Positions 17,330-63,444 of a stretch of 64,000 nucleotides of DNA are shown here, piece after piece (position 1 is the stretch's first letter; every line of letters begins with the position of its first letter). Location: assembly GCA_012729835.1 (NCBI GenBank), contig JAAYCK010000002.1, positions 1 through 64,000 on the forward strand, written 5' to 3'. This DNA comes from Syntrophomonadaceae bacterium. Its GTDB lineage: Bacteria; Bacillota; Syntrophomonadia; Syntrophomonadales; Syntrophomonadaceae. The position numbers were made by a program, and so were the translations under genes. The notes under the pieces were generated by a model, which made no database searches, was not told where the DNA came from, and saw only the letters and a list, made by a program, of their open reading frames with translations.

Positions 17330-18616
17330 TCACCAACCTTTTGGTTTTCCATTAGACACTCCAAATGTCCGGCTGAACATGGTATGTAAGACATAGCGGA
17401 GAGCATCCAGAGCATGGTCATTAGCCTTTACTGGTTTGTCCTCGCCACGTTCTTGGGCTTTCGGATCCCACACGTAATTGGTCAGTTCCTTCAGCAAGTT
17501 AGGGCACTTTGGCCCATAAATAAATAACCGCTGCTCTCCGAAATGGGAAGCAACGGTCCTGATTCCATCGATCACGCTGTTATTCGCTTTTCTAATGCCG
17601 CCGACACCGTCCTTTCTCAGCTGCAGGATGAAACTCGCAGCGCTCGGGTCAATACAAATTGCCCGCGGGTACCTCCCCTTTATGAACTCCCGCAGATCCC
17701 GGCTGTACTCAACATCTGTTTTTTGTCGGCCGGTCTTTGAACTGTCCCAGTAGTACTCATCTACGACATAAAGATTGTTGCCTGCTTGGCCAAGCAACAA
17801 GAGTACCGTGGGGTTTCCGGTACCATAATCCACGCCAAGATAATAAGCTTGGAACTTCTCCGGCAACTTCTTCGGATCGTCAATAAGGTGAACCTGGTCA
17901 TCAAACATATCATAGATAACGCCCTCGGCCAGAACCCAGAGCCCCAGGATCATACGTTTGAACCAGAGCCCGGTGAACATCCGCTTATATCGTTCTTTGA
18001 TCTTCGGCGACAGGCTAAGGTTATCATCCAGAGTGAAGTGGAGGTGTAATACCTTCTTCTCTGCGGCCTTATCTATGTATTCGGTCTTGATGTAGTGGAA
18101 TGGTCCTTCCGGGTTACAATTGAGCCATATTTTTGAACCTTCCACTGAACAGCGTCCTATCATCTGCTCGATAAACGATTCCGGGAACAGTGCAGCCTCA
18201 TCGGCAAGTGCCCCAGCCGCAGTCAAGCCCTGCAGTACGTCCTGGCTGGCTTCATTGTTGGCCCCAAACAGGTAATAGGTATTGGAGCCAATCTCAACCC
18301 GAGCGTCAGACCCTGACCTAATGTAGCGATAAGGTATTGCTTTGGCAGCCAGTATCTGAAACATGGGCTTGAGAACATTTCTCTTTAAAGCACCCATGCT
18401 CCGTCCAGCAAGGATAAAGTTTTCATTCTGGAAGGTGGCCAGCGACCAAGTTACAAAACTATCGATCATGGCCACGGTTTTCCCGGCTCTGATTGACCCG
18501 TCACAGATAATCATGTCGTAGTCTATATATGGGCTGGGGTCCATCCACCAGGTTAAGACTTGTTTCTGTTTTATGGAAAACGGCTGAAACTTAAATGCCG
18601 CAGCTTGTGCTCTCAT
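17330..18616 (-). CDS. Terminase large subunit, PBSX family
   Basis: A 428-residue packaging motor. The ATPase part shows the Walker A variant SIRAGKT (residues 41-47) and the Walker B-like ADEAALFPESF near 155. The nuclease part begins with YYLGVDYGTGNPT (about 250) and has the acidic residues expected of an RNase H fold, ending with a NDHALDALRYVLHT motif. It overlaps the small-subunit stop by 4 bases. Family relatives include PBSX XtmB. Confidence 0.95.
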   Translation of the reverse strand: MRAQAAAFKFQPFSIKQKQVLTWWMDPSPYIDYDMIICDGSIRAGKTVAMIDSFVTWSLATFQNENFILAGRSMGALKRNVLKPMFQILAAKAIPYRYIRSGSDARVEIGSNTYYLFGANNEASQDVLQGLTAAGALADEAALFPESFIEQMIGRCSVEGSKIWLNCNPEGPFHYIKTEYIDKAAEKKVLHLHFTLDDNLSLSPKIKERYKRMFTGLWFKRMILGLWVLAEGVIYDMFDDQVHLIDDPKKLPEKFQAYYLGVDYGTGNPTVLLLLGQAGNNLYVVDEYYWDSSKTGRQKTDVEYSRDLREFIKGRYPRAICIDPSAASFILQLRKDGVGGIRKANNSVIDGIRTVASHFGEQRLFIYGPKCPNLLKELTNYVWDPKAQERGEDKPVKANDHALDALRYVLHTMFSRTFGVSNGKPKGW

Positions 18617-43154: not shown

Positions 43155-44483
43155 TTGGCCGATGAAGAAAAAGACCAAGAGAAAAAAAAGAAACGAAAAC
43201 TAGGGCACTATGAATGGCGGGGCACTGAATCTCTATATCTATCGGTAAGAGACGGCACTGATCCGGACACTGGAAAACCTAATAGATATACAAAAACAGT
43301 TCTTGGCATCAAAGAGGGTGACGAGAGAGCTGCAGATACGGAACTGGCTTTATTTATTGCAGAAATAAAAAAGGGGAAAGCCAAAAAGAAGGCTTCGAAA
43401 GAGACTCTCCGAGCCTTTTCAGTACGGTGGATGCGCGATTATGTAAAAACACAGCTATCCCGCGGCACCGCCAAAGTCTACCAAACTAACCTGGATAATT
43501 ATATACTTCCCACCCTTGGGGACCTCGCCATGAGCAAGATCAAGCAAAAACACCTTTTGAAGTTTTATAACAATCTGCAGGAAGATGGTATACGAAAGGA
43601 TAAGAAATCCGGGCCCCTTGGGCCAGCAACTATACAAAAATGCCATCATATTATATCTTCGATGTTTTCCACCGCTAATGATTGGGGTGAAATAGATGAT
43701 AATCCCTGTGAAAAGGTTAAGCCTCCTAAAGTACCCAAGCGTAGAAAAGTAAGTTTAGATAAGGCAAAGGCTAAAGAAATGCTCCAGGCCCTCGCAAAGG
43801 AATCTCTCAAATATCGGGTCTTAACAGTCTTATCAGCATCAACCGGCATGCGACGTGGTGAACTCTTGGGCATAGGGAATAGTACCTTAGATCTTGATAA
43901 TTGCCTGATCAATATCGACCGAGCATCAACTCATGTTTCGGGCGAGGGTATTTTTATCGATGATCCCAAAACCGAAGCCAGCATAAGGACCATCCCGTTT
44001 CCGCAAAGTATCGTGCCATTGCTGAAAGAAATGATAGCTGCAAGAGATAAGCAACGGAACAAGTGCGGCGAATTATGGCAGAAGAAAATAATGGTCTATG
44101 GGAAATGGGTGGACAACGACTTGCTGTTTACCCAGTGGAACGGAAAGCCCATGCACCCTAATTCCGTCGATACCTGGTTTACAAAATTCAAAGAGGAGAA
44201 TAAGCTGCCGGATAATCTGACCTTTCATGGGCTGCGGCATACGAATGTTTATCTGTTATTAAAGCATGGCACTGACCTGGGAACCGTGGCTGATCTTGAA
44301 GGCCATGCCCGAAAAACTACCACATTAGATTATGACGATCCCTCTCCTGAAGCAATGCGGGAAGCTTCTGATAAAATTAATGATGTGCTGTCCCTTCCGG
44401 AAACCATCCCGAATCTAATTGGAAAGCCTGTTAACATCCGCCGTAAGAGAGAAAAGAAGTCTTCCAAAGAGCCCGAAAAATAG
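43155..44483 (+). CDS. int: Tyrosine integrase
   Basis: A 442-residue site-specific recombinase starting at TTG 43155. The N-terminal arm-binding (AP2-like) domain contains YEWRGTESLYLSVRDGTDPD. A SAM-like core-binding domain follows (VKTQLSRGTAKVYQTNLDNY). The catalytic domain has Arg233 (GMRRGEL), the HGLRH motif with His358 and Arg361, His384 (GHA) and Tyr393 (LDYDD). The C-terminus is Lys-rich. It sits next to a tRNA-Val 3' end, the presumed attachment site. Confidence 0.95.
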   Translation: MADEEKDQEKKKKRKLGHYEWRGTESLYLSVRDGTDPDTGKPNRYTKTVLGIKEGDERAADTELALFIAEIKKGKAKKKASKETLRAFSVRWMRDYVKTQLSRGTAKVYQTNLDNYILPTLGDLAMSKIKQKHLLKFYNNLQEDGIRKDKKSGPLGPATIQKCHHIISSMFSTANDWGEIDDNPCEKVKPPKVPKRRKVSLDKAKAKEMLQALAKESLKYRVLTVLSASTGMRRGELLGIGNSTLDLDNCLINIDRASTHVSGEGIFIDDPKTEASIRTIPFPQSIVPLLKEMIAARDKQRNKCGELWQKKIMVYGKWVDNDLLFTQWNGKPMHPNSVDTWFTKFKEENKLPDNLTFHGLRHTNVYLLLKHGTDLGTVADLEGHARKTTTLDYDDPSPEAMREASDKINDVLSLPETIPNLIGKPVNIRRKREKKSSKEPEK

Positions 44484-53471: not shown

Positions 53472-54500
53472 TTAACGAATTATCAACCTGCCCTCGCCGG
53501 ATTCCATGACTCGCCCTACCACCCAGGCAGGACAGTTAACCCGGGTCAGTTCAGCCTTGAGTTTCTCGGCCTGACTTTGTTCCAGGGCAATAAGCATGCC
53601 CCCGGCCGTTTCCGGTGAGAAAATCAAATCACTCATGACGGGGTCAGTCTGACCCCGGAAAACTACCCGGGAGATCACGTGATCCCGGTTGCGGTAAGCC
53701 CCGGCCGGAATCAGCCCCATTGCTGCATACTCAAGGGTTCCCTGCATAAAAGGCAGGCGGTTGATATCAACTTCCAGATCAACCCGGCTGGCGGCAGCCA
53801 GCTCCATTAGGTGCCCTGCTAAACCAAATCCGGTGATATCGGTGGCAGCATGAGCACCGGTCTCTTGCATGGCTTCAGCGGCTGCCCGATTAAGAGTGGA
53901 CATCCAGGACACCGCCTCGGCAGCAGCCTCTAGCGATGCCATTTCCGCCTTGATGGCAGTGGTTATCACCCCGCTGCCCAAGGGTTTGGTGAGGATGAGC
54001 ATGTCACCAGGCTGTGCTCCGTTATTTCCGATGATGCGATCCGGATGCACCAGGCCGGTTACTGCCAATCCGTATTTTGGTTCATTATCATCCACCGTGT
54101 GCCCGCCCATTAGCAGTGCCCCGGCTTCCTTTAGCTTGTCCAGTCCTCCGGCCAGTATCTGACCCAGGACTTCCATCTCACCGCATTCCGGAAAACAGAC
54201 AATATTCATGGCCAACAGCGGCCGCCCTCCCATGGCATAAACATCGTTCAAGGCGTTGGTCGCAGCAATCTGGCCAAAAACATAGGGATCGTCAACCATG
54301 GGTGTGAAAAAATCCAGCGTCTGCACCAGGGCAGTCGTTTCATTCAGGCGGTAGACGCCTGCATCATCGCGCCCGCCAAACCCCACCAGCAGATCCGGAT
54401 GACCCGGTATATCCAGCGCGGACAATATCTCTTCCAGGGCCCCCGGCCCCATCTTGGCAGCTCAACCCGCCGCTCGTACCATCTGGGTAAGTCTCTCCAC
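53472..54500 (-). CDS. selD: Selenide, water dikinase with in-frame UGA (selenoprotein SelD)
   Basis: A 342-residue SelD, which makes selenophosphate from selenide and ATP. The frame from GTG 54500 (GGAGG ahead) reads VERLTQMVRAAG, then TGA (54462-54464), then AAKMGPGALEEIL. The UGA is codon 13, exactly where SelD has its catalytic Cys or Sec, followed by the essential Lys16. Ignoring it gives a protein lacking the active site. Later motifs include GFGGRDDAGVYRL, ATNALNDVYAMGG, MGGHTVDDNEPKYGLAVTGL and ATDITGFGLAGHL. The most likely reading is a Sec-containing SelD. Confidence 0.9.
54437..54464 (-). promoter_or_regulatory. Sec codon and possible bSECIS hairpin in selD
   Basis: UGA at 54462-54464 is followed 12 nt later by GGGCC-GGG-GGCCC (54437-54449), a 5-bp stem with a G-only loop at the distance expected for a bacterial SECIS. 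The short 3-nt loop is not typical, so other folds are possible. Confidence 0.5.
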
Positions 54501-62127: not shown

Positions 62128-62170
62128 ATGCAAAAAGCACCCAGATTGCCCATCTGGATGCTTTTTGCAT
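62128..62170. terminator. Strong bidirectional terminator
   Basis: ATGCAAAAAGCA-c-CCAGAT and ATCTGG-a-TGCTTTTTGCAT form an 18-bp stem with one mismatch and a 5-nt loop, with A and T runs on the two flanks. It ends the selenocysteine glutaredoxin gene on the minus strand (stop 62193) and may also stop plus-strand read-through. Confidence 0.9.
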
Positions 62171-62192: not shown

Positions 62193-62423
62193 CTAGTGGT
62201 TGACCAGCTGCAGGATCTGGGTCTTGTCCAATCCTACCACCATATCATCACCGATGAGGAAGGCCGGTACACCGCGTGCCTTCCGCCGGATCATTTCCTG
62301 CCTCGCTTCGGTATCGACGTTGATATCCTTTTCAACATAGGAAATGTTGTTCTGCGCAAGAAACTCTTTCGCCAGAGTGCAGTAGGGTCAGGTCTGAGTA
62401 GTAAACATGGTAACCTGCTTCAT
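62193..62423 (-). CDS. Selenocysteine glutaredoxin (UPYC active site)
   Basis: Reading from ATG 62423 (GAGGTGAGCG ahead), the frame gives MKQVTMFTTQT, then TGA, PYCTLAKEFLAQNNI and runs to TAG at 62193, 76 residues in all. With UGA as selenocysteine the motif is UPYC at residues 12-15, replacing the CPYC of glutaredoxins. The rest is a full glutaredoxin fold: YVEKDINVDTEARQEM, the cis-Pro segment RGVPAFLIGDDMVVGLD and the final helix. Selenoprotein glutaredoxins are known from some Clostridia. It probably reduces disulfides or ribonucleotide reductase. Conventional gene finders would miss it. Confidence 0.9.
62363..62390 (-). promoter_or_regulatory. Sec codon and bSECIS-like stem-loop of the glutaredoxin gene
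   Basis: Nine bases after the UGA (62388-62390), ACTCT pairs with AGAGT around the 6-nt loop GGCGAA (stem-loop 62363-62378). A G at the start of the apical loop, close downstream of UGA, is what SelB-binding bacterial SECIS elements require. Confidence 0.7.
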
Positions 62424-62525
62424 AATCGCTCACCTCACGTCATAGTATCAAACACACGGAGCGGTGCTGCTGATTTAAATCTACCATCAGCCGCCACAAC
62501 CAATAACTGCCTGAATGCCCGGTGT

Positions 62526-63134
62526 TTACTCGCTTTCGTCCGCCTCCCCGGAATCCGGCACTTCCTCCGCTTCTTTCACCGGCGCCATGATAGAAACTAC
62601 CAGAGAGTCGGGATCAGTGAGAATCTCCACCCGCTCCGGCACCGAAAGATTTGCTACCGTAACCTTGTCTCCTTCGGACAGTTGGGAAATGTCTACTACG
62701 ATGGTCTCCGGCAAATCTGCCGGCATACAGGAGATCTCGATTTCCTTCAACCCCGCTACCGGTATCGCATCCCTGGCTAACAGATCTTCTTCACCGCTGA
62801 TATGGATGCCTACGGTGGCGGTCATCTTTTCCTTCATATTCACCTGGTAAAAGTCAATATGCGTAAGCTGCCCGTTGACTGGATGCCGCTGGATCTCCCG
62901 CACCACGACCATCAGCGGCACCTGCTCCCCTTCGATGCCGAGGGAGAAGAGTCCCCGGGTTCCATGAGTCTGAAAGATTTTGCCCAATTGTTTGGCCTCG
63001 GTCGCTATGTTGACCGGTCTCATCTCATTACCGTAAACTACTCCGGGTACCATGGAATTTTTCTTGAGCTGGTTCAAAAACCCCTTAGTCTTTACGTCTC
63101 TGCGCTGGCAGTTGATGGCTGCTGCCTCTGCCAA
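62526..63134 (-). CDS. rplY: Ribosomal protein bL25 (CTC form)
   Basis: A 202-residue bL25 with the C-terminal TL5/CTC domain. The start was set at TTG 63134, because GGGGGTGG lies five bases ahead and MAEAAAINCQRRDVKTKG fits the family; two earlier in-frame starts lie within that site. Motifs: PGVVYGNEMRPVNI, LTHIDFYQVNMKEK and the C-terminal acidic tail. It binds 5S rRNA. It is followed downstream by the Sec-glutaredoxin gene on the same strand. Confidence 0.95.
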   Translation of the reverse strand: MAEAAAINCQRRDVKTKGFLNQLKKNSMVPGVVYGNEMRPVNIATEAKQLGKIFQTHGTRGLFSLGIEGEQVPLMVVVREIQRHPVNGQLTHIDFYQVNMKEKMTATVGIHISGEEDLLARDAIPVAGLKEIEISCMPADLPETIVVDISQLSEGDKVTVANLSVPERVEILTDPDSLVVSIMAPVKEAEEVPDSGEADESE

Positions 63135-63444
63135 TGAATCCACCCCCAATCATTCATTCGGCTCTGGCAAGGAGAAAACCACTAAATCCCCCAGGCCTTT
63201 GCTATTAGCTTTACCCGTTAACAAAGCTTTGAAACGCCTGATCCAAATGACTGCAGAGAACTGCATATACTCTGTCAATGATTTTCTCTCATCAGCTTGT
63301 CTCTACTTCATTTAATTGCACTCCGGTTAAAAACAGCCGGAAATCCTGTTTAAGTCCGCATTATTACAGTCTTATGGATTAAACGTAGCCGACCGCACAC
63401 CTGCGAAAATGAATTGTGTTTACAAAAATTTTACAATTATAGTA
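63135..63444. other. Intergenic region upstream of rplY
   Basis: No gene is seen. A dyad TGCAG-AGAA-CTGCA lies at 63252-63265, and a perfect TTGACA (minus strand, 63273-63278) stands next to it but without a convincing -10 at 17 bp. The dyad could be a regulator site in the rplY promoter region. The rest is AT-rich toward the next promoter. Confidence 0.4.

Follow-up and report, generated by a model that had tools for sequence, protein, structure and literature searches.

A Grx1-type glutaredoxin gene with an in-frame UGA, probably read as selenocysteine, in a Syntrophomonadaceae genome

The glutaredoxin of Clostridium (Alkaliphilus) oremlandii is a native selenoprotein with a U(C)PXC motif (PMC7642778), and a wider family of selenocysteine (Sec) glutaredoxins (PF00462, UxxC) has been surveyed in Geobacter, Moorella and Alkaliphilus (PMC13188914, PMC1794560), with no member listed for Syntrophomonas wolfei in the 2006 survey (PMC1794560). 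The pairing of Sec and Cys homologues is standard evidence for Sec coding, a strategy followed in PMC13188914, where the bacterial SECIS element (bSECIS) is modelled as a loop of 3-9 nt with a G in the first two loop positions, on a stem of 4-16 bp, located 16-37 nt from the UGA and with MFE <= -7.5.

Here we describe a glutaredoxin gene that, like the surveyed family, would have Sec in place of the first Cys of the glutaredoxin motif, with a probable bSECIS downstream. It belongs to this known, usually unannotated family and thus calls for a corrected annotation without amounting to a new system, leaving the understanding of Sec coding unchanged. Gene callers would split or miss such a gene, so that it would be absent from redox inventories of syntrophic anaerobes.

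The glutaredoxin frame and the selenocysteine genes

We analysed a stretch of 64,000 nucleotides (henceforth the window) of a contig (C186) from a Syntrophomonadaceae genome of 3.13 Mb that is 99% complete. A prophage occupies about 293-44483 of the window. Its tail, baseplate-like and portal-like genes and its terminase large subunit (17330-18616) lie on the minus strand, its tyrosine integrase (43155-44483) on the plus strand. The gene under study is accompanied by the following features:

62193-62423, minus strand: predicted Sec-glutaredoxin gene, 76 codons plus TAG, UPYC active site (frame, Pfam and structure match)
62388-62390, minus strand: UGA codon 12, probably read as Sec, at the catalytic Cys position of glutaredoxins (frame, homologue alignment)
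62431-62436, minus strand: Shine-Dalgarno-like GAGGTG, 7 nt 5' of the ATG (sequence)
62526-63149, minus strand: ribosomal protein L25 (TL5/Ctc), same-strand gene upstream of the glutaredoxin
62130-62168, minus strand: intrinsic terminator after the glutaredoxin gene, a near-perfect inverted repeat plus T-run giving a strong hairpin (sequence)

The frame runs from ATG at 62423-62421 through the in-frame TGA at 62390-62388 to TAG at 62195-62193 and translates as MKQVTMFTTQT-U-PYCTLAKEFLAQNNISYVEKDINVDTEARQEMIRRKARGVPAFLIGDDMVVGLDKTQILQLVNH*, with the TGA (motif T-U-P-Y-C) as its sole in-frame stop. An earlier reading of the letters alone (the sequence-only reading) had claimed a complete 76-codon glutaredoxin frame, interrupted once by TGA (codon 12), and a good ribosome site; both are borne out, and we add the strand, which it did not give. 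The Pfam glutaredoxin model PF00462 matched the translation with E 3.3e-15 (56.4 bits vs. a cut-off of 22.9) in an alignment spanning residues 4-61, unbroken across the TGA. When aligned with homologues, the TGA falls exactly on the catalytic Cys column and the resolving Cys is kept. Given a Pfam match straight through the TGA and the position of the TGA on the catalytic column, the frame is not a chance one. An Rfam scan of the region gave no match, which we did not count against a bSECIS. Taking all lines of evidence together, we infer with high confidence that the gene encodes a Grx1-type glutaredoxin with Sec12, the UGA being decoded via SelB and a downstream hairpin. The apparently broken gene is almost certainly intact, the host most probably reading this UGA as selenocysteine.

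The window holds a second gene of this kind:

53472-54500, minus strand: selD, selenophosphate synthetase, with its own in-frame TGA (GUAAK) at codon 13 (TIGR00476)

The sequence-only reading had pointed to this selD as a second Sec gene, and rightly so, as the frame matches TIGR00476 with E 3.7e-117 and contains the TGA in the context VRAAG-U-AAK. A GC-rich hairpin with a GGG loop lies shortly 3' of this UGA, and a naive list of open reading frames begins the gene too late (at 54452). The other components of the machinery, which the same reading had named as genes to look for, are all present on the window's own contig just beyond the window end: selC (tRNA-Sec, anticodon UCA) at C186:65549-65643 with 70.9 bits, selB at C186:74124-75998 with E 7.4e-114, and selA at C186:76323-77696 with E 1.8e-173. 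The four sel genes thus lie within about 24 kb of C186.

Conservation of the UGA and of a downstream hairpin

Among 60 relatives we found 8 homologues at E <= 1e-8, each with a single TGA, always at the codon where the window gene has it (within UPYC, UPHC, UPAC or UPSC). The TGA is therefore kept and the sequence downstream is fully conserved; a true stop without downstream conservation, the pattern that the sequence-only reading had set against itself, was not seen. As selA is present in 53 of the 61 genomes overall, its presence in all 9 carriers (the window genome included) is consistent with Sec coding without being informative. We also scanned GTDB genomes with a closer homologue set (A2), the first profile (A1) being too diverse for a scan of the collection, and found 54 homologous loci. 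At that codon 40 of them have TGA, and the other 14 have TGT or TGC, so that homologues with Cys at the Sec codon exist. The TGA forms occur in Desulfosporosinus, Sedimentibacter, Syntrophomonadaceae, Peptococcaceae, Geosporobacter, a Chloroflexi MAG and others, so the earlier mention of "a few clostridial" Sec versions was too narrow.

The glutaredoxin tree was built on few columns and leaves many of its forks open, but it places the window protein within a clade that is well supported and comprises 34 rows (31 Sec, 3 Cys). The TGT forms (L041 and L048 from Eubacteriaceae, and L051) are nested inside the TGA clade, and on the tree as drawn Sec and Cys would have been swapped within it at least twice. 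In Desulfosporosinus fructosivorans a single contig bears both a TGA paralogue (L036, UPYC) and a TGT paralogue (L051, CSSC).

The alignment with Cys also bears on the identity of the inserted residue. Trp or Gly suppression, a general reassignment of UGA or plain readthrough would carry translation across the codon just as well, though no result singles out a suppressor. Against this, the TGA aligns with Cys in homologues and not with Trp or Gly, the tRNA-Sec (UCA) is present together with selA, selB and selD, and several close homologues appear to end on TGA as an ordinary stop (L031 after WAP, L074 after LLH). We thus regard a non-Sec reading as extremely improbable, and the claim that UGA is read as Sec is strongly supported by the machinery in the genome, the TGA kept in relatives and the Cys homologues at the same codon.

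We then considered the mRNA downstream of the UGA, where three elements are relevant:

62351-62376, minus strand: probable bSECIS hairpin, +12 to +37 after the UGA, with one A.G mismatch in the window copy; conserved in Sec homologues but lacking in Cys homologues
62364-62362, minus strand: apical loop GUU of the probable bSECIS, +24 to +26
62363-62378, minus strand: 5-bp stem with loop GGCGAA, an in-silico competitor of the probable bSECIS; not conserved

The typical conserved hairpin in Sec homologues is GCGAAAGA-GUU-UCUUUCGC, with its loop at +24 to +26. We compared 39 Sec sequences and 14 Cys sequences with versions in which the protein was fixed and synonymous codons were shuffled. In the Sec sequences the occupancy of the 8-bp stem was 6.67 vs. 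4.57 in shuffles (z 14) and the local fold energy -7.8 vs. -2.0 (z -18.5), although these z-scores ignore the relatedness of homologues and so overstate significance. By contrast, the Cys sequences did not exceed their shuffles (pairs 3.7 vs. 3.5; energy -2.7 vs. -2.1), and this contrast between Sec and Cys genes is the sounder argument for a SECIS. The position +24 is G in 39/39 Sec genes vs. 4/14 Cys genes; residue 20 varies between E, K, V and M in the Sec genes, yet its codon is always NNG.

Most Sec homologues clearly have a hairpin that agrees with the bSECIS model. The geometry of the window copy fits the model (GUU loop, 4-bp upper stem, 23 nt spacing). Despite the A.G mismatch, the best form with the conserved loop reaches -7.4 kcal/mol with the help of the lower pairs UCUG/CAGA, slightly short of the literature cut-off of -7.5. 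The predicted minimum for this copy is the fold with the GGCGAA loop (-8.5 kcal/mol), and the SECIS hairpin and this fold compete with computed probabilities of about 0.5 and 0.4. Taken alone, the SECIS of the window copy would therefore be borderline, and it is the family that carries the argument.

The GGCGAA stem itself (ACUCU/AGAGU) had been noted directly behind the TGA by the sequence-only reading. It exists, but 5 pairs also arise in 11% of versions in which these codons are shuffled synonymously. We rejected it as the main SECIS: its loop begins at +15, i.e., 14 nt from the UGA and thus nearer than 16-37 nt, and its pairing probability is 0 in 38/38 other Sec homologues. The conserved SECIS is probably the next hairpin, with the GUU loop at +24.

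Alternatively, the gene could be a pseudogene or carry a nonsense mutation of recent origin, or a TGC or TGT could have become TGA through an error in sequencing. The frame does contain a single in-frame stop, the one same-genus genome searched lacks the glutaredoxin gene, and the window SECIS is weaker than that of most homologues. However, the same TGA stands at the catalytic codon in dozens of independently assembled species with intact frames, the SECIS hairpin is conserved and the genome has a complete Sec machinery. We consider such decay or error very unlikely, as it is largely refuted already by the TGA kept in relatives.

Proposed function and the C-terminal tail

By homology, the glutaredoxin is predicted to be a thiol/selenol oxidoreductase. 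At 8 kDa, the product would be a Grx1-type glutaredoxin with selenocysteine as its catalytic residue (Sec12-Pro-Tyr-Cys15). As conservation suggests, SelB with Sec-tRNA(Sec) would read UGA12, aided by the mRNA hairpin with its GUU loop 23 nt past the UGA. By homology with the C. oremlandii protein (cGrx1), the selenolate would attack a disulfide, selenenylsulfide or oxidised thiol of the substrate, and Cys15 would resolve the intermediate. The genome gave no match to PF04262 (glutamate-cysteine ligase) and no full GshF (the TIGR01435 match was partial and below cut-off), while thioredoxin reductase is present. Given the lack of a complete glutathione-synthesis enzyme among the two families searched and the presence of thioredoxin reductase, the protein is more likely to be recycled through a route of the thioredoxin-reductase type, or through another low-molecular-thiol route, than by endogenous glutathione.

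The window glutaredoxin ends at His76, ahead of a tail found elsewhere: among the homologues collected, 27 (most of the close ones among them) continue for another 30-40 residues that contain CxxC...CxxC, a region with weak matches (below cut-off) to Zn_ribbon_5 and other ribbon-like models. For the fusion of Sec-glutaredoxin and tail (many loci: L019-L022, L027-L053), neither Pfam nor NCBIfam gave a match to a dedicated model. Since short forms emerge several times within the ribbon clade of the tree, loss of the tail is the simplest reading. An evenly balanced proposal is that there is a wider, largely uncurated Grx1-type clade across Bacillota, whose main form is tailed, in which the window lineage lost the tail and Sec and Cys were swapped at least twice. 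If true, the tail might serve to link the selenolate with a metal site or a partner. Since this small protein comes in Sec and in Cys forms, some with the ribbon and some lacking it, and since its SECIS is legible at synonymous sites, the family offers a neat system for Sec/Cys exchange and SECIS loss. Separately, in a Chloroflexi MAG (L065) a TGA-containing UPYC glutaredoxin domain is followed by an in-frame region that looks PDZ-like by eye.

Comparison with known systems

Like the UXX-star (seleno)proteins (NF041212, NF041114, NF041211), the window protein has a glutaredoxin-like fold with a predicted Sec near the N-terminus. The motifs listed for UXX-star (UxxT, GxGU) lack the resolving Cys of UPxC, however, which the window protein has, and we rejected membership as its scores fall below the cut-offs (NF041212, 47.6 bits vs. 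66; NF041114, 24.9 vs. 72; NF041211, 24.7 vs. 100). As an aside, a contig labelled Pseudomonas sp. ISL-84 (L076) carries a Bacillaceae-type UXX-star selenoprotein gene that is close to the Cytobacillus version (L077) and is likely mislabelled or contaminated.

The best match among solved structures is cGrx1 of C. oremlandii OhILAs (PDB 7c10/7c12/7c13; 3e-17 for 7c10). The two proteins share domain and length, with residues 2-74 aligned gap-free and the predicted Sec at the position of that in cGrx1, and the U-P-x-C motif, Cys15 as the resolving residue and the V-P (cis-Pro) turn at 52-53 are all aligned; the motif is UPYC here and UPHC in cGrx1. The partner of cGrx1, cMsrA, is a selenoprotein, whereas the sole MsrA found in the window genome has no internal stop, and we rejected a Sec-MsrA partnership as in C. 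oremlandii.

The tailed Sec-glutaredoxins of Sedimentibacter, Desulfosporosinus and Syntrophomonas (L027, L031, L035) share a glutaredoxin domain that is about 55-71% identical and have the TGA at the same codon, differing from the window copy in the residues that they carry beyond His76. Compared with the 2006 survey and its Syntrophomonas wolfei, the family is found here in other Syntrophomonadaceae.
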